Positions 32,367 to 54,742 of a stretch of DNA of 64,000 bases are shown in pieces. This DNA is from Lichenicola cladoniae (GTDB lineage Bacteria; Pseudomonadota; Alphaproteobacteria; Acetobacterales; Acetobacteraceae). The stretch lies in NCBI RefSeq assembly GCF_013201075.1, contig NZ_CP053708.1:3663501-3727500 (forward strand), read 5' to 3'. Both the position numbers and the translations under genes were made by a program. Each line of letters begins with the position of its first letter. Within the stretch, counting starts at the first letter, position 1. Below the pieces are notes generated by a model that saw only the letters and a list, made by a program, of their open reading frames with translations, searched no databases and had not been told where the DNA came from.

Positions 32367-32387
32367 TTAGGACCCGGTAGGAAACGA

Positions 32388-34439
<2,052 letters not shown>

Positions 34440-34631
34440 CAGGCCGCTCCAGGGTTTTTCGAGGCCCGGACAACATCCGGAGCCAGTCATGGCCCGCCGG
34501 CAACCGGCCGGGCTGATAAGCTTGTGATGGGATGAAGTGCCGTAGAGTGCAAGCAGCACGCGTCCCAGGGTTGAAATTCGGCCTCGCAGACGACTGGTAA
34601 GGGTGAACAAAGCATGTAAGCTTCTTGTCGA

Positions 34632-36206
34632 ATGATGCGTCCTGTCTCAATCATCGGTGCCGGTCCCGGCGGTCTTGCGGCAGCGATGCTGCTGTCTCAG
34701 GCCGGGGCGGATGTTACCTTGTTCGAACGTCACGCCCGGGTTGGCGGGCGATCCGGCACGATAGAGGCGCCCACCTCGCATGGGCGTTTCCATTTCGACA
34801 TGGGGCCGACCTTCTTCCTGTATCCCCGCGTACTGGCCGACATCTTCGCTACGTGCGGGCGCCGGCTCGAGGATGTCGTCGAGCTCATCAGGCTCGATAC
34901 CCATTATGACGTGATCTTCGAAAGCGGTGCGCGTATCAGCGCGAGCAGCGACATTCCCCGGCTGCAGCGCTCGATCGCACAGATCAGCCCTGAGGATGCC
35001 GCCGCGATCCCGGCCTTCATGGCCGACAACCGCGCCAAGTTGGCAGCCTTCAGGCCGGTGCTGGAAAGCCCGTTCAACAGCGCGGCCGACCTGCTGAAGC
35101 CGGAGGTGCTGAAATCGTTGCGGCTATTGCGGCCGTTCACCTCGGTCGACCAGGATCTGAAGCGCTGGTTCAAGGATCCGCGGGTCAGGCTCGGCTTCTC
35201 GTTCCAGAGCAAATATCTTGGCATGTCGCCCTACCGGTGCCCGAGCCTGTTCACGATCCTGGCATTTATGGAATACGAGTTCGGAATTTTCCACCCACGT
35301 GGCGGTCATGGCGCGATCATGCGGGCGATGGCCGATGCGGCCAGGCAGATGGGTGCCAAGATCAAGCTGGGCGAACCGGTGCGCGAGATCCTGTTCGAGG
35401 GCAGGCGCGCGGTCGGTGTGCGAACCGACGCCGGCATCACCAAGGCGGATGCCGTCGTGGTCAATGCCGACTTCCTGGATGCGATGACCAACCTGGTCCC
35501 GAACGGACTCCGCAAGCGGTGGAACGACAAGCGAATCGCACGGGCAAAACTCTCCTGTTCCACCTTCATGCTTTATCTCGGCATAGAAGGCAGACTCGAG
35601 AATCTCGCGCACCATACGATCTATCTGTCGGACGATTACCGGCGCACCTTGCAGGATGTCGAGGAAGGGCGCGTGCCGCCCGGCGAACCCTGCTTCTATA
35701 TCCAGAATGCATGCGTAACCGATCCGGCGCTGGCGCCACCCAACCACTCGACCTTGTATGTGCTGGTACCGGTCGGGCACGAGCGGACCGGAGGCATCGA
35801 CTGGAAGGTCGAGGCGCCGAAGTTCCGACGACTAATCCTGGATCGGCTATGCCGGGCCGGTGTGCCTGATATCGAGAAGCGGATCGTGTTCGAGAAGATG
35901 ATGACACCGGACGACTGGCGCGATGATCTCGCCGTACATCGTGGCGCGGTCTTCAATCTCGCCCATTCCCTGACCCAGATGCTGCAGTTTCGGCCGCATA
36001 ACCGCTACGAGGATCTGGATGGCGTGTATCTGGTCGGCGGCGGTACCCATCCCGGAAGCGGACTGCCGGTGATTTTCGAAGGTGCGCGCATCACCGCGAA
36101 ACTGCTGGCAGACGATCTGGGCCTGACCCCGATCGATACGGCAATGCATTGGACCGGAACACCGGGGGCTCCGATGGAGCCGGTGCTCGAAGGGGAAGTG
36201 TCGTGA
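34632..36206 (+). CDS. CrtI/CrtN-type carotenoid desaturase (first)
   Basis: 524 residues, FAD-dependent. VSIIGAGPGGLAAAMLLSQA is the dinucleotide-binding motif, followed by VTLFERHARVGGRSG and HFDMGPTFFLYP. The C-terminal GVYLVGGGTHPGSGLPVIFE is the hallmark of the phytoene/diapophytoene desaturase family. It stands at the head of a five-gene coupled run. With the second desaturase, an acyltransferase and a glycosyltransferase, the set resembles the crtN/crtP/crtO/crtQ gene kit of C30 carotenoids. Substrate (squalene, diapophytoene or phytoene) is inferred, not shown. The next gene starts in GTGA overlap. Confidence 0.85.
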   Translation: MMRPVSIIGAGPGGLAAAMLLSQAGADVTLFERHARVGGRSGTIEAPTSHGRFHFDMGPTFFLYPRVLADIFATCGRRLEDVVELIRLDTHYDVIFESGARISASSDIPRLQRSIAQISPEDAAAIPAFMADNRAKLAAFRPVLESPFNSAADLLKPEVLKSLRLLRPFTSVDQDLKRWFKDPRVRLGFSFQSKYLGMSPYRCPSLFTILAFMEYEFGIFHPRGGHGAIMRAMADAARQMGAKIKLGEPVREILFEGRRAVGVRTDAGITKADAVVVNADFLDAMTNLVPNGLRKRWNDKRIARAKLSCSTFMLYLGIEGRLENLAHHTIYLSDDYRRTLQDVEEGRVPPGEPCFYIQNACVTDPALAPPNHSTLYVLVPVGHERTGGIDWKVEAPKFRRLILDRLCRAGVPDIEKRIVFEKMMTPDDWRDDLAVHRGAVFNLAHSLTQMLQFRPHNRYEDLDGVYLVGGGTHPGSGLPVIFEGARITAKLLADDLGLTPIDTAMHWTGTPGAPMEPVLEGEVS

Positions 36207-37753
36207 TCGATCCTGTCGGCGTCATCGGTTCCGGGTTGGGCGGTCTTGCCGCGGCGTGCACGCTGGCGGCGCGTGGGCACAAAGTCGTGCTGTTCGAGAA
36301 AAACGACTGGCTCGGCGGCAAGGCGGCACTCTACGAGGAAGCCGGCTACCGGTTCGACATGGGTCCGACTATCCTCACGGTGCCGTCGGTACTGGCGCGG
36401 ATTTTCGGCGAAGCGAACGACCGCCTGGAGAACAGCCTCGATCTTAGGCGGCTCGATCCGCAATGGCGCTGCTTCTTCGACGACGGTGCGGTGCTCGATC
36501 TCGACGAGGACGTTGCCACGATGGCATTGCGCCTGCGCGGCTTTTCCGGCGCCGGCGAGAACAATACCGAACAGGGCTACATCGATTTCCTGGCGCTGAG
36601 CGAGAAGCTGCACGACGTCAGCCGGAAGTTCTTTTTCTGGCGGTCGGTCGAAGACATCTCCGACACTATGGATCTCAAGAAGAACATGGATCTGGGCACG
36701 CTCCGCGACGTGCTGAGCCTGCGCATGGGCTCCACCGTCGCACGACAGATCCGCAAGCGCATCGGCGACGAGCGGGTCAGCCAGATGCTCGATCATTTCA
36801 CCCAGTATGTCGGATCGTCGCCGTATCTTGCGCCGGCAGTACTCTGCAGCATCGCGCACATGCAGACGCAGGAAGGCATCTGGTATCCGATGGGCGGCAC
36901 CCGCGCCGTGCCGGAAGCTCTGGCCGAACTGGCAGGACGGCTCGGTGTCGAGTTCCGCACCAGCACCGGGATCGCCCGCATCACCCAGAGCAACGGTCGG
37001 GCCGATGGCGTGGTGACGGAGGCGGGCGAGACGGTGAAGCTGTCGGCCGTGGTGTCCAACATGGACAGCGTGCGGACGTATCGCGAGCTGGTCGGGGGGG
37101 CTGCGCAGAAGAGCTTCGCCAAGCGGCGCAAGCGCGAGCCGGCGTGTTCGGGCGTGGTGCTGTATCTCGGTCTCGACCATGCGTACGATCATCTGCTGCA
37201 CCACGACTTCGTCTTCTCGCGCGATCCGGAAGAGGAGTTCGACTACATCTACAAGAAAGGCGAGCCTGCGCCGGACCCGACCTGCTACGTCGCGGCTCCC
37301 TCCCGCACCGAGCCGGGTGTGGCTCCACCGGGCGGCGAGGCGTTGTATGTGCTGGTGCACACGCCGTATCTGCGGCCGCATCACGACTGGAATGCGATGC
37401 TGCCTGGCTACCGTAAGGTGATCCTGGACAAGCTGGCACGCACGGCCGGCATGAAGGACCTGGAAAGCCGGATCAAGGTCGAGCGCATCCTGACGCCCGC
37501 CGACATCCACGAGCGATACCGGGTGCTCGACGGGGCGATCTATGGGTTGGCCAGCCATGGCCGGTTCATCGGCGCGTTCAAGCCAGGTAATAGGTCGCGC
37601 GACCTCGATGGGCTCTATCTGGCCGGCGGCGCGGCGCATCCGGGACCGGGCATGCCGATGGTGATGATGTCCGGCTGGATCGCGGCGGACAGTCTGGATC
37701 AGGACGTGCGGTCCAATCATCCCGGTGCGAGCGAGACGAGGCTCAGCGCCTGA
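36203..37753 (+). CDS. CrtI/CrtN-type carotenoid desaturase or oxidase (second, CrtP-like)
   Basis: 516 residues from GTG 36203, overlapping the previous stop and preceded by AAGGGGAA. GVIGSGLGGLAAACTLAARG and VVLFEKNDWLGGKAA form the FAD site, then FDMGPTILTVPSVLARIF. LYLAGGAAHPGPGMPMVMMS is the family C-terminal motif. Paired paralogues of this kind occur in C30 carotenoid operons, where one desaturates and the other oxidises the chain end (CrtP/CrtNb). Which copy does which step cannot be told from sequence alone. It is followed by the acyltransferase through a CTGA overlap. Confidence 0.85.
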   Translation: MIDPVGVIGSGLGGLAAACTLAARGHKVVLFEKNDWLGGKAALYEEAGYRFDMGPTILTVPSVLARIFGEANDRLENSLDLRRLDPQWRCFFDDGAVLDLDEDVATMALRLRGFSGAGENNTEQGYIDFLALSEKLHDVSRKFFFWRSVEDISDTMDLKKNMDLGTLRDVLSLRMGSTVARQIRKRIGDERVSQMLDHFTQYVGSSPYLAPAVLCSIAHMQTQEGIWYPMGGTRAVPEALAELAGRLGVEFRTSTGIARITQSNGRADGVVTEAGETVKLSAVVSNMDSVRTYRELVGGAAQKSFAKRRKREPACSGVVLYLGLDHAYDHLLHHDFVFSRDPEEEFDYIYKKGEPAPDPTCYVAAPSRTEPGVAPPGGEALYVLVHTPYLRPHHDWNAMLPGYRKVILDKLARTAGMKDLESRIKVERILTPADIHERYRVLDGAIYGLASHGRFIGAFKPGNRSRDLDGLYLAGGAAHPGPGMPMVMMSGWIAADSLDQDVRSNHPGASETRLSA

Positions 37754-38547
37754 CCAACCAGGATCCGGTCGCAGCGCGGTCGGAGTTCCTGTTCCGCCTG
37801 TTCGCTTTCTATCTGAGGCTTTCGATCCGCCGGCGCTTCCGGGCAATCCGGATCTCCGGCTTCGATGCCGAAACTCTTCCACGCGACCGACCGCTGATCA
37901 TCTATGGCAACCATCCATCCTGGTGGGACCCGGCGCTGTATCTTCTGCTCGCCGATCTGCAGTTCCGCGGACGCCCGGGTTTCGGTCCGATGGAGGAGGA
38001 TGCGCTCGAACGCTACGGGTTCTTCCGGAAGCTCGGCATCTTCGGCATCGACAAGCACAGTGCGGCCGGCGCGCGTCGCTTCCTGTCCGTGGCAAAGCAG
38101 GTGCTGGGCAATACCGGTGGCCCGGGCGGGCGAATGATGCTCTGGGTGACGGCCGAGGGCGATTTCACCGATCCACGAGTACGCCCGGTCCGGCTGCGCC
38201 CCGGCATCGCCCATCTTGCGGCGCTGCAGCCCGACGCGCTGCTGGTGCCGCTTGCCGTCGAATACGTGTTCTGGAATGAGAGCCGGCCCGAACTTCTGCT
38301 CCGCCTCGGCACGCCACTCGCGGCAGACCGGAGCGTGCGCACCGCCGAGTGGACCAGCCGGCTGGAACGTGGATTGACCGAAACGATGGACCAGCTCGCC
38401 CTCGACAGCCAGGCACGCAACCCGGCCCGGTTCACCCGGCTGCTGTTCGGCGGCGCCGGCGTCGGCGGCCCTTACGATGCGTGGCGACGCCTGCGTGCCC
38501 GGCTGTCCGGCCAGCGGATCACGACCGCGCATGGCGAGGAGGCATGA
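37750..38547 (+). CDS. Lysophospholipid acyltransferase-like enzyme with apparent CTG start
   Basis: 265 residues. The PlsC-type motif NHPSWWDPALY (H-x4-D) is present about 60 codons in, followed by FGPMEEDALERYGFF, and WVTAEGDFTDPR near the second conserved block. No ATG, GTG or TTG precedes the motif in this frame. ATG 37990 would delete the catalytic H-x4-D, so it cannot be the start. CTG 37750 overlaps the previous stop as CTGA, mirroring the GTGA and ATGA joins on either side, and lies ten bases after GAGG. In context it probably acylates the carotenoid glycoside, as CrtO does for staphyloxanthin. That assignment is inference. Confidence 0.78.
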   Translation: MTNQDPVAARSEFLFRLFAFYLRLSIRRRFRAIRISGFDAETLPRDRPLIIYGNHPSWWDPALYLLLADLQFRGRPGFGPMEEDALERYGFFRKLGIFGIDKHSAAGARRFLSVAKQVLGNTGGPGGRMMLWVTAEGDFTDPRVRPVRLRPGIAHLAALQPDALLVPLAVEYVFWNESRPELLLRLGTPLAADRSVRTAEWTSRLERGLTETMDQLALDSQARNPARFTRLLFGGAGVGGPYDAWRRLRARLSGQRITTAHGEEA

Positions 38548-39665
38548 ACCACGGTCGGGCGGCAGCGGTCGCCGGATGGATGGCGCTTGGTCTCGCCGCG
38601 CTTCCGCTGGCGCTGGCAATCGGCAACCTGAAGCGCCTGCAGGCCCCCAAGCCGGCGGCGATCCGGCCGCGCATGTCGGTGCTGATCCCGGCCCGGAACG
38701 AGGCCGCCAACATCGGCGATGCGGTGGCCTGCGTGCTCGCCAGTCGCGACGTCGAACTCGAAGTGCTGGTGCTCGACGACGGCTCGACCGATGCGACGCC
38801 CGCCATTCTGGCGACAATCGCCGATCCGCGGCTGCGGGTGATATCCGGGGGCGGCGTCCTGCCGTCCGGCTGGTCCGGCAAGCAATATGCGTGTGCACGC
38901 CTGGGTCGCGAGGCCAGCCTCGAGTTGCTGGTGTTCGTGGATGCGGATGTCCGGCTAGCCCCGGACGCGTTGTCGCGCATGGCGGGCTACATGCAGGCGA
39001 ACCCGGATATCGGGCTGGCCAGCGGCATCCCGCGCCAGATCACCGGGACCTGGTCCGAATGGCTGTTGTTACCGCTGATCCACCTGTTGCTGCTGGGCTA
39101 CCGGCCGGATGCGCTCGATCATGGCCGTGTCGATCCCCGCTTCGCAGCCGGTTGCGGCCAGTTGTTCATCGCGCGCTCAGGGGCCTATCGCGCCATGGGG
39201 GGCCACGATGCGATCCGTGCATCGCTGCATGACGGGCTTACCCTGCCCCGGGCCTTCAGGCGCCACGGGATGCCGACCGGCCTCTTCGACGCAACCGCGC
39301 TTGCCTCCTGCCGGATGTATACCACTGCCGCCGACCTGTGGGAGGGCCTGACCAAGAACGCCACCGAAGGCCTGGCCACGCCGCGCGGCCTGCCGATCTG
39401 GACGATCATCCTCGGCGGTGGCCACGTGCTGCCACTGCCGCTCATGCTGTTCGCGCCGAGCCTGCCGGCGGCAGCGGCGGTCGCCTGCGGGACGACGCTC
39501 CGGCTGTTGCTGGCACGGCGGTTCGACCAGAGCATGCGCAGCGTGGTCCTGCATCCGTTGGGCGTGCTGGCGTTGCTTGCGCTGCAATGGTCGGCGCTGG
39601 TTCGTGCGCGGTCGGGGCGGCCATCCACCTGGCGCGGGCGCGTATATCCGGCAGCGCAGTCGTGA
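38544..39665 (+). CDS. GT2 family membrane glycosyltransferase, CrtQ-like
   Basis: 373 residues. One N-terminal helix (VAGWMALGLAALPLALAIG) and about three C-terminal helices anchor a cytosolic GT-A domain: MSVLIPARNEAANIGDAV, LVLDDGSTDATPAILA and VFVDADVRLAPDAL (metal site). SGWSGKQYACARLG is typical of CrtQ-like and hopanoid-type GT2 enzymes. ATG 38544 overlaps the acyltransferase stop (ATGA). In this operon it most likely glycosylates the carotenoid carboxyl or hydroxyl end. Confidence 0.85.
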   Translation: MNHGRAAAVAGWMALGLAALPLALAIGNLKRLQAPKPAAIRPRMSVLIPARNEAANIGDAVACVLASRDVELEVLVLDDGSTDATPAILATIADPRLRVISGGGVLPSGWSGKQYACARLGREASLELLVFVDADVRLAPDALSRMAGYMQANPDIGLASGIPRQITGTWSEWLLLPLIHLLLLGYRPDALDHGRVDPRFAAGCGQLFIARSGAYRAMGGHDAIRASLHDGLTLPRAFRRHGMPTGLFDATALASCRMYTTAADLWEGLTKNATEGLATPRGLPIWTIILGGGHVLPLPLMLFAPSLPAAAAVACGTTLRLLLARRFDQSMRSVVLHPLGVLALLALQWSALVRARSGRPSTWRGRVYPAAQS

Positions 39666-39706
39666 CGCCGGCTCCCGACATCACGCACGAGGCGGGCAGA
39701 GAGACA

Positions 39707-40177
39707 ATGCGCCGTGCACCCCCCGCCGGGAGACGGTTGGCCCCTCGTCTTGTTCCCGGCTGTCTCCGCCTCATGGTCCTCGGCGTGTTCCTGTCATGCG
39801 GGACATCCGCCTGGTCAGCCGCACTGACCATCACTGTCGCCAACCTGCCAAGCGAGAAAGGTCACGTACGGATAGGCGTCTGCACACGTTCGCAGTTCCT
39901 GAGCGAGCGGTGCAGCTATCACGCGATAGTGTCGGCAAAAGCCGGCACGATTACGACAACGATCCAGGATGTGGCTCCCGGCACCTACGCGGTTGCGGCG
40001 TACCAGGATGAAACCGACCTCGGGCGCATGCGCCGCAACCTGTTTGGAATTCCGCTGAACCCGTCGGGCTTCTCGCGCGATCCGAAGATCGGCTATGGGC
40101 CACCTTCGTTCGACGCCTGCGCGTTCCGGATCGGCGCCCAGGATGCCGCGATCACCGTCACGGTGCGTACCCACTAG
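39707..40177 (+). CDS. DUF2141 secreted protein
   Basis: 156 residues from ATG 39707. A hydrophobic segment after a basic start (LMVLGVFLSCGTSAWSAAL) is a likely signal peptide. The mature part has the DUF2141 pattern: VRIGVCTRSQFL, VAPGTYAVAAYQDET, GRMRRNLFGIP and GYGPPSFDACAF. GTG 39662 overlaps the previous stop and is an alternative start giving 15 more residues. The DUF2141 family has no established biochemical role; its place at the end of the carotenoid run suggests a periplasmic pigment- or membrane-associated function. Confidence 0.8.
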   Translation: MRRAPPAGRRLAPRLVPGCLRLMVLGVFLSCGTSAWSAALTITVANLPSEKGHVRIGVCTRSQFLSERCSYHAIVSAKAGTITTTIQDVAPGTYAVAAYQDETDLGRMRRNLFGIPLNPSGFSRDPKIGYGPPSFDACAFRIGAQDAAITVTVRTH

Positions 40178-40245: not shown

Positions 40246-41358
40246 ATGGCGGATCGGGTCCTGGTCACGGGCGGAGCGGGCTTCATCGGTCGGCATGTGG
40301 TGCGGGCCCTCCTGGCGCGCGGCGATAGCGTCCGTGTCTATGACAGCCTGATCGAGCAGGTGCACCCGCATGGTGCAACTTCGGAATCCGTGCCCGACGA
40401 CGTCGAACTGGTCCAGGCCGATATCCGCGATAGCGAAGCGCTCGGTCATGCGCTGGATGGCATCGACAAGGTCGTGCACCTGGCGGCAGACGTCGGTGTC
40501 GGCCAGAGCATGTACCTGATCGAACGCTACGTGGCGGTCAACGATCTCGGGACGGCCTGCCTCTGCCAGGCGCTGATCGACAAGCCTGTGAAGCGGGTCG
40601 TGGTGGCATCCTCGATGTCGATCTACGGCGAGGGCCTCTACACCGCGACCGACGGCACGATGATGCAGGAGGTCGTGCGCCCGGTGCGTCAGGTCGGCGC
40701 GGGCTGGGACCCGCTCGGGCCGGACGGGTCCCCGCTCACTCCCGCCGCGACGCCGGAGTGGAAACAGGCGCGGCTCGCATCGGTGTATGCGATCACCAAG
40801 TACATGCAGGAGCAGTTGATCCTGTGCGCGCCTCCGGCTTATGGCATCGAGGGCGTCGCGTTACGGCTGTTCAACGTCTATGGACCGGGCCAGGCGCTTT
40901 CCAATCCGTATACCGGCGTGCTGGCGATCTTCGCGTCGCGGCTGCTCAACCGCGAGCGGCCGCTGGTGTTCGAGGATGGCGGTCAGCGCCGCGACTTCGT
41001 GCATGTGGACGACGTGGTGCAGGCGTTCCTGCTGGCGCTCGACCACCCGGCCGCGGCCAACCGGGTGTTCAACATCGGCAGCGGCCGCAACGTCTCGATT
41101 TCCGATGTGGCCCGGGCAGCCGCTTCAGCGATGGATCTGGCTCAAATCGAACCGGAGTTCGTCGGCAAGGCCCGCACCGGCGATATCAGGCACTGCTTCT
41201 CCGACATCACCCTGGCCCGCGACGTGCTGGGTTTTGCGCCTACGCGGACGTTCGACAATGCACTGCCCGAACAGATGGAATGGGTGCGTCGCCAGCAGGC
41301 CACCGATCGCGTGCAGGAAGCCCGCAGCGAACTGGAAGCACGCGGACTGGTCGCATGA
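40246..41358 (+). CDS. NAD-dependent nucleotide-sugar epimerase (extended SDR)
   Basis: 370 residues. VLVTGGAGFIGRHVV is the NAD site, VHLAADVGVGQSM and SSMSIYGEG surround the active Ser/Thr, and YAITKYMQE holds YxxxK. The RLFNVYGPGQALSNPYTGV, QRRDFVHVDDVV and NIGSGRNVSI stretches are typical of dTDP-L-rhamnose/UDP-sugar 4-epimerases. It opens the oligosaccharide cluster and overlaps the next gene by four bases (ATGA). Confidence 0.88.
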   Translation: MADRVLVTGGAGFIGRHVVRALLARGDSVRVYDSLIEQVHPHGATSESVPDDVELVQADIRDSEALGHALDGIDKVVHLAADVGVGQSMYLIERYVAVNDLGTACLCQALIDKPVKRVVVASSMSIYGEGLYTATDGTMMQEVVRPVRQVGAGWDPLGPDGSPLTPAATPEWKQARLASVYAITKYMQEQLILCAPPAYGIEGVALRLFNVYGPGQALSNPYTGVLAIFASRLLNRERPLVFEDGGQRRDFVHVDDVVQAFLLALDHPAAANRVFNIGSGRNVSISDVARAAASAMDLAQIEPEFVGKARTGDIRHCFSDITLARDVLGFAPTRTFDNALPEQMEWVRRQQATDRVQEARSELEARGLVA

Positions 41359-41489
41359 CGGATCTCCTCCGGACCGATGGCATGAGCGATCTCCTGCGGG
41401 CCGGTCGCGCGAAGGAAATTCCTCCGACCGCTCGCGTCAAGGAAGTCCGCCGGACTGGTCGCGTGGAGAAAGTTCTTCGGGGCGGAGGC
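41355..41489 (+). repeat. Imperfect 27-bp tandem repeat in the 5' end of the fusion gene
   Basis: Five consecutive 27-base units (41355-41381, 41382-41408, 41409-41435, 41436-41462, 41463-41489). They encode nine-residue units MTDLLRTDG, MSDLLRAGR, AKEIPPTAR, VKEVRRTGR and VEKVLRGGG. Units 1 and 2 are closest; later ones diverge. The repeat ends exactly where the hydrolase domain begins. Confidence 0.75.
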
Positions 41490-43532
41490 GGCGCGCTCGG
41501 GCTGGTCGAGTGGTTCCATCCGGGCGAGCATGCACGCGTCGAGGAAAGCCTGGGCCGGTTGCGTGTTCTCGGCATTACCCGCTTGCGCACGCACATCTCC
41601 TGGGCCGAATACGTCAATGACGGTGGCGCAGACTGGTATGGCTGGCTGGTGCCGCGCCTGGCAGGCGAAATCGAACTGCTGCCGTGCGTGCATTTCACCC
41701 CGCCGAGCCTGTCCCGCACCGGCCGCACCAGTGGCCCGCCGCACGATCTCAGGGCCTACGCCGATTTCATCGACCATCTGATCACCCGGTTCGACGGCAT
41801 GTTCCCTGCCGTCGAGATCTGGAACGAGCCGAACAACCTGCTCGACTGGGACTGGCAGCAGGACCATGACTGGCTGCTGTTCTGTGAGATGGCGGGCGCC
41901 GCCGCGCACTGGATCCAGGCGCGCGGGCTCAAGGCGGTGCTCGGCGGCCCCTGCCCCGCGGACCTGAACTGGCTCCGGCTGATGGGCGAGCGCGGGCTGC
42001 TGAACGTGCTCGATGCGGTCGGGCTGCACGGGTTTCCCGGCACATGGGATGCGGAGGCACGGTCCTGGCGCGGCTGGCCGGCGCTGATCGCCTCGGTCCG
42101 CGAGACCGTTGATGGATTCAACCCGAAGCTTGAGCTGTGGATCACCGAGACCGGCTATTCCACATGGCGTAACGATCCGTTCGCGCAGGTGACCCGGTTC
42201 GTCGAGATCGCCGAGCTGCCGGTCGAGCGGATCTACTGGTACGGGTTGCAGGATATCGCCGCGGACGTGGCGGTACAGGAAGGCCTGCATTTCGACGAAC
42301 GGCACTATCATTTCGGGCTGTACACCGAGGCAGGCAGCCCGAAGCTGCTCGGCAGACTGCTTGCCAGCGGCGGCCTGGCGCTGGCACGCGACATCGCCGA
42401 TGCCGGCGCGCCGAAACCGGCCCTCGGCAAGCCCGGCCTGATCGGCACCAAGCCCGCGCTGGTGACCGGAGGCGCCGGCTTCATCGGCACCAATCTCGCC
42501 GACCGGCTGGCACGCGACGGCGAGGATGTGCTGATCCTGGACAGCCTGGCGCGGCCCGGGGTCGAGGAGAACCTGGACTGGCTCAGGCGGCGCCACCGCG
42601 GCCGGCTGTCGGTGGCGATCGCCGATCTGCGCGATACGAAGGCGGTGGCGGATGCCGCACGCGACGCCTCCAGCGTGTTCCATCTGGCCGGCCAGGTGGC
42701 GGTCACCACCAGCCTGGTCGACCCGCTGGCCGACTTCGACATCAACCTGCGCGGCACCATCAACCTGCTCGAGGCGCTTCGCCGCCGGAGTGAAGGCGCC
42801 GGGTCCGAACCGGTGCCGCTGGTGTTCGCCAGCACCAACAAGGTCTATGGCGACCTCGCCGACATAAGGCTGTCGCACAACGACGACGCCTACCTGCCGA
42901 TCGACCCGTTGCTTCGTGCGCACGGCATCGGCGAAGCCCGGCCGCTGTCGTTCCACACCCCATACGGTTGCTCCAAGGGTGCTGCCGACCAGTATGTACT
43001 GGACTATGCCCGCTCGTTCGGCCTGCCGATGGTGGTGCTGCGGATGAGCTGCATCTATGGGCCACGCCAGCTCGGCACCGAGGACCAGGGCTGGCTCGCG
43101 CATTTCCTGTTGTCGGCGCTGCAGGATCGCCCACTGAGCCTATACGGCGACGGGCGCCAGGTCCGCGACGTGCTGGAAGTCGAGGATGCGGTCTCGGCCT
43201 ACCTGGCGGCGCGGGACCATGCGCCGCTGGTGGCGGGCGAGGCGTTCAACCTCGGCGGCGGCGCCGACAATGCGATCACACTGCTGATGCTGATCGAGGA
43301 GATCGAGCGGCTCACCGGGCAGCGGGTACGGCGCGATTTCCATCCCTGGCGCACCGGCGACCAGCGCTATTTCGTGGCGGACACCAGGCGCGCCAGGCAG
43401 GTTCTGGGATTGTCACAGCCCCTGGGATGGCGGGACGGCGTGGCGAGGCTGCTGCGCTGGATCGAGACGGAACGGCCGCATCTGGTCGGGCGTTCGATGG
43501 CGACCGGACAGATGATCGAGGGTGCCGCATGA
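41355..43532 (+). CDS. Clan-A glycoside hydrolase fused to CDP-paratose 2-epimerase-like SDR
   Basis: 725 residues from ATG 41355 (ATGA join). After about 45 repeat-derived residues, a TIM-barrel domain (about 50-345) carries the two clan-A glutamates: EIWNEPNN (E158, acid/base) and WITETGYST (E265, nucleophile). From about 365 a complete extended SDR follows: LVTGGAGFIGTNLADRLA, FHLAGQVAVTTSLVDPL, STNKVYGD, and FHTPYGCSKGAADQY with YxxxK at 537-541, then RMSCIYGPRQLGTEDQGW, a pattern close to CDP-paratose 2-epimerase. One chain thus joins glycan cleavage or transglycosylation with nucleotide-sugar epimerisation. No signal peptide, so it acts in the cytosol. Substrates unknown. Confidence 0.85.
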   Translation: MTDLLRTDGMSDLLRAGRAKEIPPTARVKEVRRTGRVEKVLRGGGGALGLVEWFHPGEHARVEESLGRLRVLGITRLRTHISWAEYVNDGGADWYGWLVPRLAGEIELLPCVHFTPPSLSRTGRTSGPPHDLRAYADFIDHLITRFDGMFPAVEIWNEPNNLLDWDWQQDHDWLLFCEMAGAAAHWIQARGLKAVLGGPCPADLNWLRLMGERGLLNVLDAVGLHGFPGTWDAEARSWRGWPALIASVRETVDGFNPKLELWITETGYSTWRNDPFAQVTRFVEIAELPVERIYWYGLQDIAADVAVQEGLHFDERHYHFGLYTEAGSPKLLGRLLASGGLALARDIADAGAPKPALGKPGLIGTKPALVTGGAGFIGTNLADRLARDGEDVLILDSLARPGVEENLDWLRRRHRGRLSVAIADLRDTKAVADAARDASSVFHLAGQVAVTTSLVDPLADFDINLRGTINLLEALRRRSEGAGSEPVPLVFASTNKVYGDLADIRLSHNDDAYLPIDPLLRAHGIGEARPLSFHTPYGCSKGAADQYVLDYARSFGLPMVVLRMSCIYGPRQLGTEDQGWLAHFLLSALQDRPLSLYGDGRQVRDVLEVEDAVSAYLAARDHAPLVAGEAFNLGGGADNAITLLMLIEEIERLTGQRVRRDFHPWRTGDQRYFVADTRRARQVLGLSQPLGWRDGVARLLRWIETERPHLVGRSMATGQMIEGAA

Positions 43533-44842
43533 AGGTCGCGTTGCTGAACCCGCCCTGGACGTTCGAACACAGCATCTATTTCGGCTGTCGCGCCCCGCAC
43601 TTGCCGATCGAACTCGGCGCGTCGAAAACCCTGCTGGAACGGGCCGGTCACGCGACACTGATGCGCGACGGCCTGCTCGACGAGCTCGATATCGGCGGCA
43701 TGGCCGAGGCCTGCGCCGGGTTCGCGCCGGACATGATCGTCGTCACCACCGCGCCCACCTACCTGTTCTGGCGCTGCGCCCAGCCCGAGTTGCGGCTGCC
43801 GCGGATGCTGCTCGATGCGCTGCGTGTGGCATGCCCGCACGCGACGCTGGTGGCGGTCGGACCGCACGGATCGGCCACACCGGACGCGGCACTGCGCAAG
43901 CTCGGCGCCGATATCGTCGTGCGCGGCGAATGCGAGGAGGTGGTGCTGGCGCTGGCGAACGGTGGCGTACCCGGCGAGGTTCCAGGAACCGCCGCCCTGC
44001 AGCCGGACGGCAGCATCCGCGCCAATGGCGGGCCACAGGCGACACGCTTCACCGACCTGCCGGCAGTGCGCTGGCCGGACCACTGGGTCGCCCGTCACCA
44101 TCATCATCATCATCGGTTCGAGCAGCCGCACCAGGGGTCGGGCCACGATCTGCCCGGTGCCGAAGTGGAAGCCTCGCGCGGCTGCCCATACTCGTGCTCG
44201 TTCTGCGCCAAGATCGATTTCCGGGACTCCTATCGTCGTCGCGACCTGGTGCCATTGCTGGAAGAAATCGATGCGCTTCGGGCGCAGGGCGTCGGCTACC
44301 TGTATTTCATCGACGAGATCTTCCTGCCGAACCGGTTGCTTCTGGAGGCACTGGTCGGACGCGGGCTGAAGTTCGGCGTGCAGACACGGATCGACCTGTG
44401 GAAGCCGGAGATGCTGGAACTGCTGGGACAGGCCGGCTGCGTCTCGATCGAGGCCGGGGTCGAGAGCCTGACCGAAGCGGGGCGTGCGGAACTGGACAAG
44501 AACTGCAAGCTCTCGACCGACGAACTCGCCGACCGGCTCATCATGGCAAAGCAGCATGTCGCCTTCGTGCAGGCCAACCTGATCCAGGTGAGCGGCGACG
44601 ATCCGGCGATGGTGACGGCCTGGCGCGAGCGCCTTCTCGCCGCCGGGGTATGGGCCAACGATCCGGTGCCGCTCTATCCGTATCCGAGTTCACCCGATTA
44701 CCGGAAGCTGTTCGGCCTCCCCGACGCGCAGGCCTGGGAACGGGCGCACGCGCATTATCTCGGGCTGTTCGACCGGATGTCCGACATCCAGGATGACACC
44801 CCGCTACCGCTCGCCGAGCTGGAATCCGTCTGCCGCCGCTGA
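43529..44842 (+). CDS. Radical SAM protein with N-terminal B12-binding-like domain
   Basis: 437 residues, ATGA overlap with the fusion gene. The first about 150 residues look like a Rossmann-type B12-binding-like domain (VALLNPPWTFEHSIYFGCR, VAVGPHGSATPDAALRKLG, IVVRGECEEVV), but a DxHxxG cobalamin-ligand motif is missing. The radical SAM core starts at SRGCPYSCSFC (CxxxCxxC cluster ligands), with YFIDEIFLPN and CVSIEAGVES strands following. A natural run of six His occupies residues 190-195. The setting among glycosyltransferases recalls radical SAM families linked to oligosaccharide clusters. It may methylate or rearrange a sugar or lipid; chemistry is not deducible. Confidence 0.85.
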   Translation: MKVALLNPPWTFEHSIYFGCRAPHLPIELGASKTLLERAGHATLMRDGLLDELDIGGMAEACAGFAPDMIVVTTAPTYLFWRCAQPELRLPRMLLDALRVACPHATLVAVGPHGSATPDAALRKLGADIVVRGECEEVVLALANGGVPGEVPGTAALQPDGSIRANGGPQATRFTDLPAVRWPDHWVARHHHHHHRFEQPHQGSGHDLPGAEVEASRGCPYSCSFCAKIDFRDSYRRRDLVPLLEEIDALRAQGVGYLYFIDEIFLPNRLLLEALVGRGLKFGVQTRIDLWKPEMLELLGQAGCVSIEAGVESLTEAGRAELDKNCKLSTDELADRLIMAKQHVAFVQANLIQVSGDDPAMVTAWRERLLAAGVWANDPVPLYPYPSSPDYRKLFGLPDAQAWERAHAHYLGLFDRMSDIQDDTPLPLAELESVCRR

Positions 44843-45909
44843 TGTCGCGGCATATCCTGGTCACCACCGATGCGGTCGGCGGCGTCTGGCGCTACAGCCT
44901 GACGCTGGCGCGGGAATGGGCCAAGGCCGGCGTGCGGGTCGAGCTCGCCGTGCTGGGCCCTGCTCCCGACCCGGCACAGCGTGCGGAGGCGGGGGCGATC
45001 GACGGTCTCGCCATCCACGTGACCCTCCTAGAGCTGGACTGGACCGCGCCGGATCGTGCGTCGCTGGAACGCGTCGCCGTCGCGCTGGCCGATCTGGCGC
45101 GGCAATGTGGCGTGACCTCGGTGCATCTGCATGCACCGGCGCTGGTGGGCATGGTCGAATGGCCCGGTCCGGTTATCGCAGTGCTGCATTCCTGTCTCGC
45201 CACATGGTGGCGCGCGATGCGTGACGGTCCGCCGCCGAAGGATTTCCGGTGGCGCATCGAAGTGACCGCCGACGGACTGCGGCGTGCCGAGCACATCGTA
45301 GCGCCGAGTCGGGCATTCCGAAACATGGCAGTCGAAGCCTATGACAATTGCAGGCCGATCACCGTCGTCCTGAACGGGCGCGATCCGCCTGCCGGTCTTT
45401 TCGGGCCTGCATCGGCGCGAACGCGGCAGGTATTGTCCGCCGGACGGTTCTGGGATGAGGGCAAGGACGTGGCGACGCTCGATCGCGCGGCGGCACTGGT
45501 CGATGCTCCGGTACAGGCAGCGGGGAGCTTTCGCGGGCCGAATGGGCAGGAGGCGGCATCGTCTTCGCTGGTCAGGCTGGGCAGCCTCGGCGAACCTGCC
45601 CTGGCTCTGGCATTTGCCGATACGCGCGTGTTCGTTTCCACCGCCCGCTACGAGCCGTTCGGCCTCGCCGTGCTGGAAGCGGCCCAATGTGGTCTGGCAT
45701 TGGTGCTCTCCGACATCACGAGCTTTCGCGAACTCTGGGACGGCGCCGCCCTGTTCGTGCGACCGGGCGATGCGGCCGATTTCGCATCCGCAACGATGCA
45801 GGCACTGGACAACCCCGACCTGCTTGCGGCGAACGCGCATGCTCGCGCCAGCCAATATTCCGCTGCCGGCATGGCCGGCGCCACCCTGGCATTGCATCAT
45901 CGCGCATGA
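44842..45909 (+). CDS. GT4-family glycosyltransferase
   Basis: 355 residues. ATG 44842 shares one base with the previous stop (TGATG). The N-terminal LVTTDAVGGVWRYSLTLARE is the acceptor-side GT-B opening. The C-terminal domain shows VLSAGRFWDEGKDVATL and STARYEPFGLAVLEAAQCGL, the E-x7-E donor-site region of GT4 enzymes. It transfers a sugar from an activated donor within this cluster; specificity unknown. Confidence 0.88.
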   Translation: MSRHILVTTDAVGGVWRYSLTLAREWAKAGVRVELAVLGPAPDPAQRAEAGAIDGLAIHVTLLELDWTAPDRASLERVAVALADLARQCGVTSVHLHAPALVGMVEWPGPVIAVLHSCLATWWRAMRDGPPPKDFRWRIEVTADGLRRAEHIVAPSRAFRNMAVEAYDNCRPITVVLNGRDPPAGLFGPASARTRQVLSAGRFWDEGKDVATLDRAAALVDAPVQAAGSFRGPNGQEAASSSLVRLGSLGEPALALAFADTRVFVSTARYEPFGLAVLEAAQCGLALVLSDITSFRELWDGAALFVRPGDAADFASATMQALDNPDLLAANAHARASQYSAAGMAGATLALHHRA

Positions 45910-45935
45910 CCTAAACCGAAAGGATCGCCTGAGCC

Positions 45936-47033
45936 GTGCAGGTCGTCGTGTTCACCCACTCCCTCACTTCATGCTGGAACCACGGCAACGCGCATTTCCT
46001 GCGCGGCGTGTTGCGCGAGCTGCAGGCGCTGGGTCATGCGGTCCGCGCCTACGAGCCGGAAGGAAGTTGGAGCCGGGAGAACCTGATCCAGGATGGCGGC
46101 GATGAGGGTCTTGCCGCGTTCACCGACCATTATCCGGAACTTACCGCCAGGCTCTATCCGCCGGACGCACCCGATTTCGACGCCATGCTCGACGGGGCCG
46201 ACCTGGTGCTGGTGCATGAATGGAACCCGCCCGAACTGGTCGCGGCGATCGGCGCGCGGCGCTCGGCCGGCGGGCAGTTCCTGGCGCTGTTCCACGATAC
46301 CCACCACCGCGCGGTCAGCGATCCCGAGGCGATCCGGCATTTCGACCTGTCCGGCTATGATGGCGTGCTGGCATTCGGGGCGACCCTGGCCCGGATCTAC
46401 GAACACTGGGGCTGGGGCGGACGCGTGTTCGTCTGGCACGAGGCGGCCGACCTGAGGCGTTTCCAACCGCCTGCGGAACCGGTCGACCGCCAGGGCGGTG
46501 TCTGGATCGGCAACTGGGGCGACGGCGAGCGGAGCGCCGAACTCGAGGAGTTCCTGCTGCGGCCGATGCACGAGGCCGAGCTGCCGCTCGACATCTACGG
46601 CGTGCGCTATCCGGACGAAGCGAAACAGACGCTGCTGCGGCACCACGCGCAACTGCGCGGCTGGCTGCCGAACCCGAAAGCGCCTGACGTATTCGCGCGT
46701 CATCTGGCAACGGTGCATGTGCCGCGCCGGTTCTACGTCACGCTGCTGCCCGGCATCCCGACCATCCGCGTGTTCGAGGCGCTGGCGTGCGGCATCCCGC
46801 TGCTGTCGGCACCCTGGGACGACGCGGAAGGCTTGTTCACGCCGGGCGAGGATTTCCTGGTTGCCCGCGACGGCGCCGAGATGACCCGGCTGCTGCGCGA
46901 TGTCGCCAACGATCCCGACCTGCGCTCGGCTCTTGCGGCACATGGGCTCGCCACGATCCGCGCCAGGCATTCGTGCGCACACCGCGCCGTCGAGCTTCTG
47001 GCGATCGCCGCACACCTTGGGACACCAGCCTGA
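45936..47033 (+). CDS. CgeB-like glycosyltransferase, copy 1
   Basis: 365 residues from GTG 45936, with AAAGGA about 12 bases upstream. The N-terminus reads FTHSLTSCWNHGNAHFLRGV and GHAVRAYEPEGSW; the C-terminal third has the CgeB-type donor region RFYVTLLPGIPTIRVFEALA, then GIPLLSAPWDDAEGLFTPG and a terminal RHSCAHRAVELL. The three consecutive genes here share this plan and are paralogues, this one being the most diverged. The family is GT-B-like; donor unknown. It sits 26 bases after the GT4 gene. Confidence 0.82.
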   Translation: MQVVVFTHSLTSCWNHGNAHFLRGVLRELQALGHAVRAYEPEGSWSRENLIQDGGDEGLAAFTDHYPELTARLYPPDAPDFDAMLDGADLVLVHEWNPPELVAAIGARRSAGGQFLALFHDTHHRAVSDPEAIRHFDLSGYDGVLAFGATLARIYEHWGWGGRVFVWHEAADLRRFQPPAEPVDRQGGVWIGNWGDGERSAELEEFLLRPMHEAELPLDIYGVRYPDEAKQTLLRHHAQLRGWLPNPKAPDVFARHLATVHVPRRFYVTLLPGIPTIRVFEALACGIPLLSAPWDDAEGLFTPGEDFLVARDGAEMTRLLRDVANDPDLRSALAAHGLATIRARHSCAHRAVELLAIAAHLGTPA

Positions 47034-48130
47034 TGCAGATCGCCGTCTATGGATCGAGCCTGCTGTCGTCGTACTGGAACGGCGCCGCCACCTATTATCG
47101 AGGCCTGCTTGGCGCTATGGCGCGTCGCGGCCACGGCATCGTCTTCTTCGAGCCGGACGCGTTCGGACGGCAGCAGAACCGCGACATAGCGCCGCCCGAC
47201 TGGGCGAAAATCGTGGTGTATGAAGCGACACCGGAGGGCGTGCGCGACGTGCTCGGCCAGGCCGGTGACGCAGACATCATCGTCAAGTGCAGCGGCGTCG
47301 GCGTGTTCGACGACGAGTTGCTGGACGGCATTCTCGTCAATGGCCGTGCCGGCGCGGTCCGGGTGTTTCTCGACGTCGATGCGCCGGCGACGCTTGCCGA
47401 GCTGCGGCAGAACGAGGCGCACGCGCTGCATGCAGCACTGCCGGCGCTTGACCTGGTGCTGACCTATGGCGGCGGCGATCCGGTCATGCGTGCCTATGCC
47501 GGATTCGGCGCGCGCGCCTGCGTTCCGATCTACAACGCGCTCGATCCGGCCACGCATCATCCGGTCATGCGCGATCCCGCTTACGAGGCCACGCTATCGC
47601 TGCTGGCCAACCGGTTGCCCGATCGCGAGGCTCGGATCGAGGAGTTTTTCCTGCGCCCCGCCGCATCGCTGCCGGGGCAATCGTTCCTGCTGGGCGGCTC
47701 GGGCTGGCACGACAAGCCGATGCCGGCGAACGTGCGCGCCATCGGCCATGTCCCCACGGCAGCGCACAACGTGCTGAACGTGTCGGCGCGGGCGGTGCTG
47801 AATGTCGCCCGCGACAGCATGGCGGAAGTCGGGTTCTCCCCGGCGACCCGGGTCTTCGAGGCGGCCGGCGCCGGTGCCTGCCTGATCACCGACTTCTGGA
47901 ACGGGATCGAGCTGTTTCTCGAGGCGGGCAGCGAAATCCTGGTGGCGCGGGATGGACAGGACGTGGTGGAGCACCTGCGCACGCTGACGGCGGAGCGCGC
48001 GCGAAGCATCGGCGAGGCTGCACGGGCGCGCATCCTGGCGGGTCACACCTACGACCAGCGCGCCGTGCTGCTGGAGACGGTGCTGGCCGGCGCGATCGCC
48101 GTGCGCCGCGACCAGCCGGGCCGGACCTGA
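47033..48130 (+). CDS. CgeB-like glycosyltransferase, copy 2
   Basis: 365 residues, starting in the previous stop (TGATG). Opens with VYGSSLLSSYWNGAATYYRG and RRGHGIVFFEPD, then QQNRDI, nearly the same pattern as copy 3. The donor region has LNVARDSMAEVGFSPATRVF, EAAGAGACLITDFWNGIELF, and a final HTYDQRAVLLE. Likely adds one sugar in a stepwise series with its neighbours; cytosolic, no membrane segment seen. Confidence 0.82.
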   Translation: MQIAVYGSSLLSSYWNGAATYYRGLLGAMARRGHGIVFFEPDAFGRQQNRDIAPPDWAKIVVYEATPEGVRDVLGQAGDADIIVKCSGVGVFDDELLDGILVNGRAGAVRVFLDVDAPATLAELRQNEAHALHAALPALDLVLTYGGGDPVMRAYAGFGARACVPIYNALDPATHHPVMRDPAYEATLSLLANRLPDREARIEEFFLRPAASLPGQSFLLGGSGWHDKPMPANVRAIGHVPTAAHNVLNVSARAVLNVARDSMAEVGFSPATRVFEAAGAGACLITDFWNGIELFLEAGSEILVARDGQDVVEHLRTLTAERARSIGEAARARILAGHTYDQRAVLLETVLAGAIAVRRDQPGRT

Positions 48131-48133
48131 GCG

Positions 48134-49204
48134 ATGCGCCTCGTCGTCGTCGGTCTCAGCCTGAGCTCGAGCTGGGGCAACGGCCATGCCACCACCTACC
48201 GCGCTTTGCTCGCCGCCTTCGCCGCACGCGGCCACGACATCATGTTCCTCGAACGCGACATGCCCTGGTACGCGCAGAATCGCGACTTGGCCGATCCGTC
48301 GTTCTGTCGGCTAGCGCTGTATGACGGGCTGGACGGGCTGCGCGAGCACGGCCCGGCAATCGCCGGCGCGGATGCGGTGATCGTCGGATCTTACGTGCCG
48401 GACGGGATCGAGGTCGCGCGGTTCGTGCAGGATACGGCCCGGGGCGTGACGGCGTTCTACGACATCGATACCCCGGTGACGCTGGCGGCACTCGAGCGCG
48501 GCGACTGCGCCTATCTGTCGCGCGCCGTGATCCCGGGCTTCGACCTCCTGTTGTCCTTCACCGCCGGGCCCACGCTGACCCGCTTGGAGCAGGAGTTCGG
48601 CGCCCGCGATGCAAGGGGCTTCTACTGTTCGGTCGATCCGGCGCGCTACCGCCCGACAGCTGCTCTACGGCGTTGGGATCTCGGTTACCTCGGGACCTAC
48701 AGCGATGACCGCCAGCCGACCCTCGACCGCCTGCTGATCGAGGTCGCCCGTCGCGCACCCGAGCGCCGCTTCGTGGTTGCGGGACCGCAATATCCCGCAT
48801 CGATCGACTGGCCCGGCAACGTCGAGCGGATCGAGCACCTGGCGCCGCAGGACCACCCGGATTTCTACTCAGCCTGCGGCTGGACCCTGAACGTGACCCG
48901 CGCCGACATGATCCGCGCCGGCTGGAGCCCGAGCGTGCGGCTGTTCGAAGCCGGGGCGTGCGGATGCCCGATCGTTTCGGACCGCTGGGACGGGATCGAG
49001 GACGTACTGACGCCGGGCCTGGAGATCGTCCTGGCCGATGATACCGACGCCCTCGTGACACTGCTCGACTGGCCGGCCGAACGTCGCGAGACAGTGGCGG
49101 TGGCGGCAAAAACCCGCATCCTGGCTGCCCACACCAGTGCTCACCGTGCCGTGCAGCTGGAAACGATTTTCCTGATGCAGCCGAAACGGTCGGCGCGGCG
49201 TTAG
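48134..49204 (+). CDS. CgeB-like glycosyltransferase, copy 3
   Basis: 356 residues, three bases after copy 2. Opening VVGLSLSSSWGNGHATTYRA, RGHDIMFLERDMPWY and QNRDL align by eye with copy 2. The C-terminal region has LNVTRADMIRAGWSPSVRLF, EAGACGCPIVSDRWDGIEDV and HTSAHRAVQLE. Last gene of the coupled cluster; 33 bases then lead to a small secreted-protein gene with its own AGGAG site. Confidence 0.82.
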   Translation: MRLVVVGLSLSSSWGNGHATTYRALLAAFAARGHDIMFLERDMPWYAQNRDLADPSFCRLALYDGLDGLREHGPAIAGADAVIVGSYVPDGIEVARFVQDTARGVTAFYDIDTPVTLAALERGDCAYLSRAVIPGFDLLLSFTAGPTLTRLEQEFGARDARGFYCSVDPARYRPTAALRRWDLGYLGTYSDDRQPTLDRLLIEVARRAPERRFVVAGPQYPASIDWPGNVERIEHLAPQDHPDFYSACGWTLNVTRADMIRAGWSPSVRLFEAGACGCPIVSDRWDGIEDVLTPGLEIVLADDTDALVTLLDWPAERRETVAVAAKTRILAAHTSAHRAVQLETIFLMQPKRSARR

Positions 49205-52053: not shown

Positions 52054-52581
52054 TCAGGCTCTCCGTGACGATCCCAGCAGGCGCCGCAGGACGACCTGCC
52101 CCACGACCAGCAGGAACGCCGCGTAGAGCAGATCGATCATCGCCATCGAAACCGGCAGCCACTGGAACAGCCGGTTCGGCGAGTCGCATGGCTTGGCAGG
52201 CCGGGCCGGCATCGATGCCAGCCGCTCGGCGAAGCTGCCGCCGCTGAAATGCGGAGCCATGCATTCCGGCAGCGGGCTCGGCCACCAGCCCTGTTCGACG
52301 CCGACATGGATGCCGGCGATGACGATCGCCGCAATCAGCGTGAGGGTGATCAGGATGCCGATCGGCCTGGCCGGACGCAGCTCAAGCGCCGCCAGCGCGC
52401 TCCAGACGAATCCCAGCGCGATCAGGACGCGATACGGCCAGCGCTCCCAGAGGCAAAGCGCGCATGGCGCCATGCCTTCCAGATGCTGCGCCCACCACAC
52501 CCAGGCGATCGCCCAGAACCCGGCCAGGGCCCAGAAGCCGCCCTGGAGCAGGCCGGCCTCGCGCCTATCGATGACTGGCAT
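52054..52581 (-). CDS. dsbB: Disulfide bond formation protein B
   Basis: 175 residues, four membrane helices. [15 protein letters not shown] holds the CxxC pair facing the periplasm, and LPECMAP with AKPCDS the second cysteine pair in the other loop. It reoxidises DsbA and passes electrons to ubiquinone; its neighbour coq7 makes that quinone. Its 5' end overlaps otsA by 17 bases. Confidence 0.9.
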
Positions 52582-53929
52582 GCGGCTTCCGCTCCGGGGT
52601 CGCGTTCAGCACGGCCAGGAAGTCGCGGGCCCAGGTCGCGGCAGTGACGCGATGCACCGCTTCGTTCATCGCCTCCCAGCGCCGGGACCGCTCCTTCAGT
52701 CCCATGGTCAATGCCTGGTCCAGCGCTTCGGCGATCTCGTCCGGGTCATACGGATTGACCATCACCGCATCGCTGAGTTCCGGCGCCGCGCCGGCAAAGC
52801 GGGACAGCACCAGCACGCCCGGATCGGCCGCGTCCTGGGCCGCGACATACTCCTTGGCGACCAGGTTCATCCCATCCCGCAACGGCGTTACCAGCCCGAC
52901 GGCGGCGCGACGATGCACGCCGGCCAGCACCTTCCGCGGCAGGGCGCGGGTGATGTAGCGCAGCGGGATCCAGTCGATCTCGGCCCAGTTGCCGTTGATG
53001 CGTCCGGACAGCTCGTCCAGCTCGCGGCGCAGCGCCTTGTATTCCGCGACCTCGCCCCGCGAGACCGGGGCGATCTGCAGGAACGACACCTTGCCCCGGT
53101 GCGCCGGGAAGCGCTGCAGCAGTCGCTCGAAGCCGCGGAACCGCTCGGGGATGCCCTTGGAATAATCCAGCCGGTCGACGCCGAGGATCAGGGCGCGGCC
53201 ATTCAGCGCCTGGGTCAGGCGCGCCATCTCCTTGCTGGTCTCGCCGCGCAGCGCCTGCTTGGCGAACGCCACCGGATCGATACCGATCGGAAACGACTGT
53301 GCCTGCACCTCGACGCCGAGAGCCGACAGCGACTGGTTCATGTTGTCGGCGTCCTGCTGCGTCTGCACGCCGACAACATCGTAGGCGCCGAGATCGGCCA
53401 GCAGCAGGTCGGCGCCGGGCAGTGCACGGAACAGCGCTTCCGGCGGAAACGGGATGTGCAGGAAGAAGCCGATCTTGGACGTGACGCCCTCGCGCCGGAG
53501 GGCCTCGCCGAGCGGGAACAGATGATAATCCTGCACCCAGATCACGTCGTCCGGCTTGAGCAGCGTCTTCAGGCTGCGCGCGAAGATCGCGTTGACCTCG
53601 AGATACGTCTCGAGCTCCTCGCGGCTGTACTGCATCAGGCCGAGGCGGTAGTGGCAGACCGGCCAGAGGATGCCGTTCGAGAACCCCTGGTAGAAGCCTT
53701 CATGCTGCTTTGCGGTCAGGTCGATGGTGGCGTAGGTGACGCCGCCCTGCTCGGCCAGCTCCGGCGTGGGCGCCGGCGACTCCTTGCCTTGCGAGCTGCC
53801 CGACCAGCCGAACCAGAGGCTGGGCTGGCCCTTGATCGCGTCGGCGAGACCGACCGTCAGTCCACCGGCCGGCTGGGTCCGCTCGCGAGGCGACGGAACC
53901 CGGTTCGAGACAATGACTAGCCTTCCCAT
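52565..53929 (-). CDS. otsA: Alpha,alpha-trehalose-phosphate synthase
   Basis: 454 residues from ATG 53929, GT20 family; makes trehalose-6-phosphate from UDP-glucose and glucose-6-phosphate in the cytosol. [20 protein letters not shown] is the N-terminal loop, [15 protein letters not shown] and [16 protein letters not shown] follow, and [20 protein letters not shown] is the donor-site motif. Its start overlaps the end of otsB by 13 bases. Trehalose supports osmotic and desiccation tolerance. Confidence 0.96.
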
Positions 53930-54684: not shown

Positions 54685-54722
54685 GCTGACGGAACCAGTG
54701 TCAAACGGACCGGCTTCACGGC

Positions 54723-54739
54723 GCGGCCCTTCAGGCCGC
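54723..54739 (-). terminator. Short GC hairpin between DUF2155 gene and otsB
   Basis: GCGGCC (54723-54728) pairs with GGCCGC (54734-54739) around a CTTCA loop, in the only sizeable gap of this minus-strand run. It has no T tract. It may attenuate read-through from the DUF2155 gene into otsBA. Confidence 0.35.
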
Positions 54740-54742
54740 CCG

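Follow-up and report, generated by a model that had tools for sequence, protein, structure and literature searches.

Seven adjacent genes (g1-g7) on the plus strand of Lichenicola cladoniae, at positions 40246-49204 of the window (the whole 64,000-nucleotide stretch of DNA analysed here), form a genuine conserved pathway around a radical SAM family already named by NCBI; the cluster is not categorically new. As far as the searched literature shows, the pathway is uncharacterised, and it has several testable, partly surprising features. The NCBI model concerned (TIGR04295, B12_rSAM_oligo) names a single protein, and what is described here beyond that name is a wider gene set, a stress-sigma motif and the permutation of a glycosidase. 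Literature searches on TIGR04295, TIGR04290, the gene set, and EcfG together with radical SAM found no description of this cluster among the papers listed, in agreement with the original prediction, which knew of no characterised pathway with such genes. That prediction is partly supported: it did not see that the hydrolase is fused to an epimerase, nor the inositol module and stress-sigma motif of relatives, nor the existing family name of the radical SAM protein. Our best reading, which we hold tentatively, is that these genes encode a cytosolic pathway to a short soluble oligosaccharide with one radical-modified residue, likely a protectant in the alphaproteobacterial general stress response. 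If this is true, many alphaproteobacteria of soil, leaves and lichens make a so far unrecognised sugar chain as part of their general stress response, and a radical SAM family that has a name and no function would get a testable role.

Layout and conservation of the cluster

The genes, domains and motifs of the window cluster are as follows:

40246..41358 (+): g1, SDR-type NDP-sugar epimerase/dehydratase (PF01370, 173 bits)
41355..43532 (+): g2, fusion of a predicted N-terminal clan-A glycosidase and a C-terminal CDP-tyvelose 2-epimerase-like domain
41484..42428 (+): g2 glycosidase domain, predicted TIM barrel in canonical strand order (AlphaFold2 model, Foldseek)
42435..43529 (+): g2 epimerase domain, CDP-tyvelose 2-epimerase-like (sequence match to 9rl0 and 1orr)
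43529..44842 (+): g3, B12-binding-domain radical SAM protein, TIGR04295 (666.6 bits against a cut-off of 400)
44096..44116 (+): g3 His-rich motif, H190-x-H-H-H-H-R196 (alignment of 91 rows)
44183..44206 (+): g3 CxxxCxxC [4Fe-4S] motif, C219, C223 and C226 (alignment of 91 rows)
44842..45909 (+): g4, GT4 glycosyltransferase (PF13439, PF13692)
45936..47033 (+): g5, PF13524 (CgeB-type) glycosyltransferase, GTG start (124.6 bits)
47033..48130 (+): g6, PF13524 glycosyltransferase (128.3 bits)
48134..49204 (+): g7, PF13524 glycosyltransferase (124.9 bits)

Four of the six junctions are overlaps (4, 4, 1 and 1 bp), and the gaps at the other two are 26 and 3 bp; at the start of g5, an in-frame ATG at 45906 runs into a stop two codons later. 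These coordinates bear out the original prediction of seven consecutive same-strand genes, mostly overlapping or abutting. The contents that it gave (two epimerase modules, a clan-A hydrolase, a radical SAM enzyme, one GT4 and three CgeB-like transferases) correspond to g1, the two halves of g2 and g3-g7: an epimerase, a hydrolase-epimerase fusion, a B12-type radical SAM protein, one GT4 and three PF13524 (CgeB-type) transferases. A search of the PDB at E 0.01 gave no sequence match for g7. The claim that the cluster includes no flippase, polymerase or membrane enzyme also held in family scans and hydropathy analysis. Flippase, polymerase and ABC exporter, by which a Wzx/Wzy or ABC-dependent polysaccharide cluster would be recognised, are absent among the seven products, and none of these has a membrane-like segment (highest 19-residue mean hydropathy 1.56). 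The hydropathy test comprised 15 sequences, eight from the window (one per gene product, with g2 split in two) and seven proteins of relatives, and none was membrane-like.

With one genome scanned per species, 181 relatives of g3 were found, 80 of which were fetched with their surroundings; 20 further stretches were taken from genomes of the window's family, and ten of these, recognised as repeats by the length and content of their contigs, were dropped before counting, leaving 90 distinct loci. All loci were annotated by BLAST of ORFs of at least 80 aa, and strongly diverged genes or those cut by a contig end were scored as missing. Sixty-five fetched loci extend 4.5 kb or more before and 7 kb or more after the middle of g3; in 54 of them all seven genes are collinear with the window, and the other 11 contain five or six in order. 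Thus, the gene set is conserved together around the radical SAM protein, the check that had been proposed for it, and the 54 collinear loci rule out chance or artefact as the origin of the grouping. In Methylobacterium loci L005, L006, L009, L012, L019 and L020, g1-g5 are kept and no g6 or g7 match was present in the fetched flank.

The distribution of TIGR04295 was examined in even samples of genomes. Matches over the cut-off turned up in 21 of 150 family genomes, in 14 of 385 from the class and in 10 of 398 from the phylum, and every genome among these last ten belongs to the window's class. One locus, L080, is titled as a Gemmatimonadaceae metagenome bin. Two other genomes of the window's genus were sampled, one with a TIGR04295 match (G512) and one with none (G334). 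In a quick tree of 91 rows, in which 36 of the 88 inner branches are open, the window belongs to a starred set of four together with its nearest kin, L126 (same genus), L003 and L004, and this grouping rules out a cluster private to the window. Three labels on this tree are off: L003 is marked as fused (its upstream end is missing), L014 as permuted (it is not in the glycosidase census below) and L023 as having none, though a glycosidase is present at the edge of that locus.

Enzymes of the cluster and a permuted glycosidase

The product of g3 is a full-length TIGR04295 member, at the score listed above against the curated cut-off. Its structural model (pLDDT 87.0, pTM 0.90) was matched by Foldseek to TsrM, OxsB, MgmA, CysS and TokK, and also to AprD4. 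The Pfam B12-binding model scored 24.2 bits, under its cut-off of 32.1, and the three cysteines of the CxxxCxxC motif are each present in 91 of 91 rows. Judged from the model and its fold matches, g3 has a B12-binding-like domain followed by a CxxxCxxC radical SAM core, as defines a B12-dependent radical SAM enzyme. Methyl transfer is the likely reaction, and no more than likely because AprD4, an aminoglycoside dehydratase titled diol dehydratase, ranks with the best hits in both fold and sequence searches and is matched about as well. Between the B12-like domain and the radical SAM core lies the HxHHHHR block, whose residues H190, H193, H194, H195 and R196 occur in 91 of 91 rows and H192 in 90 of 91. 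The model is of low confidence here (mean 57 over residues 191-200); as a guess, it could be a putative metal or phosphate site.

The nearest solved relatives of g1 (alignment of 83 rows) are 6wjb and 6wj9, at 143 and 140 bits. The epimerase half of g2 matches 9rl0 (281 bits) and 1orr (261 bits) from end to end, the next other family scoring 126 bits, and is by this full-domain kinship a CDP-tyvelose 2-epimerase homologue. The enzyme 9rl0, from Thermodesulfatator, is reported to convert CDP-glucose to CDP-mannose (PMC13098431). The g2 copy differs from these enzymes in being fused to a glycosidase, and no other CDP-sugar gene could be recognised among the seven. Twelve of 81 loci have a nucleotidyltransferase near the cluster; the scanned copy fell below the cut-offs of its matched families. 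At the start of g2 (41343-41462), a 27-bp imperfect tandem repeat of 4.4 copies gives the protein a repetitive N-terminal tail, which was not seen in the same-genus copy L126.

The AlphaFold2 model of the g2 glycosidase domain is a TIM barrel (pLDDT 82.3, pTM 0.85), for which the best Foldseek match was PslG of Pseudomonas aeruginosa (4zn2; E 1.4e-13, TM 0.69, 17% identity). With a predicted Glu at strands 4 and 7 of the barrel, the modelled domain has the features of clan GH-A. The predicted acid/base Glu is encoded at 41826-41828 and the predicted nucleophile Glu at 42147-42149, these roles being assigned by analogy. Membership of glycoside hydrolase family 39 found no support at Pfam level (PF01229, 11.2 bits versus a gathering score of 26), and the only solved match of the domain at the sequence level, titin, was judged spurious. 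Eight of ten aligned fused copies, including that of the window, retain both Glu115 and Glu222 of the domain; both are replaced in L030 (Asp, Gln) and L056 (Gly, Gly). These two copies show that hydrolysis is probably not always needed, and the alignment suggests that the domain may be retained there for binding or folding. PslG is itself a hydrolase within a biosynthetic cluster, that of an exopolysaccharide pathway, and it is the nearest solved fold; the domain here differs from it in being fused to an epimerase, in being permuted in relatives and in its low identity.

This permutation separates the two forms in which the glycosidase occurs. All ten fused copies examined (the window and nine others) have the usual strand order, whereas the stand-alone glycosidases (48 in a census limited to ORFs whose match to a fused copy has an E-value of 1e-10 or lower) start at strand 4 (MIEAAMIWNEPNN...) and carry strands 1-3 at the end. 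The census rule classified 42 of the 48 as permuted and 6 as one-segment; four of the latter also show a second segment in permuted order, which brings the permuted copies to 46 of 48, and the remaining two are L046 and L029, the ORF of which is cut by the locus end. When stand-alone copies were separately aligned to the window, 14 of 14 were permuted; one segment aligned at E-values of 1e-21 to 1e-29, the other at 1e-7 to 1e-12. Examples are L037:4154-5041 (-) and the copies in L016, L015 and L036. These alignments show the stand-alone glycosidase and the fused form (41484-42428), which occur in like clusters, to be circular permutants of each other. A literature search on permuted clan-A glycosidases gave none on point by title among the matches listed. 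The occurrence of a fused and a permuted stand-alone form of one cluster's glycosidase offers a clean natural case for the study of protein evolution.

Associated genes and a stress-sigma motif in relatives

Genes in the flanks were counted over 81 loci (L003-L082 plus L001, the piece from the window itself). A glycosidase is present in 55 loci, fused copies counted, a TIGR04290 methyltransferase in 48, an inositol-3-phosphate synthase in 46, a histidine phosphatase in 42 and a UDP-glucuronate decarboxylase in 40, one copy of which matches solved UDP-glucuronate decarboxylases at 340 bits. The methyltransferase copy scanned from relatives passes its model (372 against a cut-off of 300). Inositol synthase (E<=1e-80) also co-occurs with TIGR04295 at the genome level, being found in 6 of 14 TIGR04295 genomes versus 23 of 371 others in the class sample of 385 (hypergeometric p 2e-4). 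None of the three genes of this inositol module (INO1, phosphatase and TIGR04290 methyltransferase) is among the scanned genes beside the window cluster. The L. cladoniae genome has an unclustered myo-inositol-phosphate synthase far from the cluster (PF07994, 203 bits), and no TIGR04290 match over the cut-off was found in it. Twelve more ORF families recur in the flanks. Five were unmatched in Pfam at the chosen thresholds; according to Pfam, the others are topoisomerase IB, DUF1003, a methyltransferase, a GH15/trehalase-like protein, an SDR, PIG-L and, weakly, GT9.

A small specialised metabolite or cofactor of mycothiol-like or aminocyclitol-like type, rather than a protectant, is an improbable product. 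It could account for the mycothiol-type inositol synthase and MSMEG_4193-like phosphatase that adjoin the cluster in relatives, for a PIG-L deacetylase-like gene in four loci and for the place of AprD4 among the top matches of g3. However, two scanned inositol synthase copies gave 493 and 515 bits with the mycothiol-type model (TIGR03450, cut-off 638) and the phosphatase 163 bits with TIGR03848 (MSMEG_4193-like, cut-off 204), so that this test places neither among the mycothiol enzymes. Moreover, Pfam identified none of the recurrent flank families as a ligase, resistance or export gene, and it left 5 of the 12 without a match.

The chain could also be a surface glycan, or a decoration of a preformed lipid, LPS core, S-layer or flagellin, whose flippase or acceptor genes lie elsewhere, which we consider unlikely, though far from negligible. 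The exopolysaccharide pathway of PslG fits such a role, as do the CgeB-type transferases, a class that takes part in spore-surface glycosylation, and a DUF1003 gene, which we take to encode a membrane protein, recurs in the flanks of eight loci. Against it, the seven products lack membrane-like segments, and no flippase, polymerase or exporter was recognised by Pfam among the 12 recurrent flank families (5 unmatched). In addition, a hydrolase fused to an epimerase should act in the cytosol, which weakens both the exported and the glycolipid readings.

A promoter motif may connect the cluster in relatives to the general stress response. Of 82 loci (L023, whose g1 begins before the locus start, was excluded), 26 carry the dyad GGAAC-N16-18-GTT in the 450 bp preceding g1, where 1.8 would be expected from the rate over all loci (0.022 per stretch); in the same range upstream of inositol synthase it was found in 14 of 48 (1.1 expected). 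Controls upstream of g1 with wrong spacing and GTT gave 4 and 2 of 82, those with scrambled halves 1 and 4 of 82, and those with wrong spacing and CGTT, which are stronger than the ones with GTT, 1 and 0 of 82. In an unbiased scan of all 5+3 dyads of this spacing upstream of g1, GGAAC/GTT ranked first (23 of 82 versus 1.3 expected; log10 p -22, kinship ignored). Upstream of inositol synthase the stress dyad ranked 220th in such a scan (6 of 48 in a stricter stretch), so support for that promoter comes from the targeted count. When the first locus per genus-level group was taken (51 groups, with unnamed loci counted singly), 22 of 51 had the motif upstream of g1. It was seen in none of 8 Azospirillum, 4 Belnapia and 4 Methylorubrum loci and in 2 of 13 of Methylobacterium. 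Before the other core genes the motif occurs in 0 or 1 locus each, except for g5 (9 of 85). These nine loci, all titled as Roseomonadaceae, carry the full motif 141 bp before g5, by position within the end of g4; it was taken as inherited coding sequence and left uncounted.

The distance from motif to g1 ranges from -57 to -371, and in L014 another gene lies in between, which argues that the motif is not one inherited stretch. This L014 gene (7540-7836, +), directly upstream of g1, encodes a 98-residue protein with no Pfam or NCBIfam match, whose family recurs in the flanks of eight loci. The motif of the relatives overlaps the consensus of the EcfG/PhyR general stress regulon, which is published for Sphingomonas melonis as GGAAC-N17-20-GTT (PMC6599016). 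The window differs in that its g1 has no GGAAC-N16-18-GTT upstream, the best relaxed site holding 7 of 9 letters, and its cluster would not be assigned to the EcfG regulon on this basis. A full-consensus EcfG site is present inside g2 (43469-43494), 60 bp before g3; it was not counted because it is not conserved before g3 (a looser motif in only 1 of 89 loci) and about two such sites are expected by chance per 64 kb. PhyR-type domains are present in the L. cladoniae genome (two over the cut-off), and the window copy might share the stress regulation of its relatives.

A proposed oligosaccharide and the surroundings of the window cluster

In the pathway that we tentatively favour, the two SDR epimerases, together with UDP-glucuronate decarboxylase in about half of the relatives, would provide unusual NDP-sugars, from which the GT4 enzyme and the three CgeB-type transferases might add about four residues. 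The acceptor in many relatives is probably inositol, supplied by the clustered inositol-phosphate synthase and phosphatase; in L. cladoniae it could come from the unclustered synthase. The B12-type radical SAM enzyme would then change one C-H position, with C-methylation as the first guess, and the PslG-like glycosidase would trim or turn over the chain in the cytosol. The cytosolic enzymes, the hydrolase tied to a nucleotide-sugar enzyme, the adjacent inositol synthesis and the stress motif all point to a soluble, intracellular, protective oligosaccharide. Mycobacterial methylated polysaccharides (MMP and MGLP) are made by cytosolic glycosyltransferases, with methylation and a hydrolase in one cluster. 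The likeness is only that of a system that works in a similar way, and the enzymes here are of the B12-type radical SAM and CgeB types.

A more far-reaching version would make the product an intracellular protectant of a new class, induced by stress and consisting of a (methyl)inositol-based oligosaccharide in which a sugar is modified by the radical SAM enzyme. The invariant HxHHHHR would be an extra metal or substrate site of that enzyme, and the chain would be processed by a glycosidase that became both fused to an epimerase and circularly permuted in evolution. Taken as a whole, this version is doubtful.

Immediately before the window cluster, on the same strand (34632-40177), are genes of carotenoid type, namely two CrtI-family enzymes, an HpnB/CruG-like GT2 and a DUF2141 gene, the last of which is separated from the cluster by 68 bp. 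The window cluster may be read from this upstream operon. In this lineage the carotenoid could conceivably carry the oligosaccharide, which we regard as very improbable. The two CrtI-type enzymes and the GT2 end 581-4040 bp upstream, and carotenoid-type genes are likewise upstream in L126 and L004. Among the other distinct loci, however, 90 in all and many with short flanks, such genes were seen in those two only. Further upstream, 32280-34535 holds a 751-residue open frame with no Pfam or NCBIfam match, the opposite strand being likewise open. Downstream of the cluster, on the opposite strand (52565-54930), lie trehalose-6-phosphate synthase and phosphatase genes, and a trehalose-6-phosphate synthase match is found downstream in L003, L004 and L126 too.
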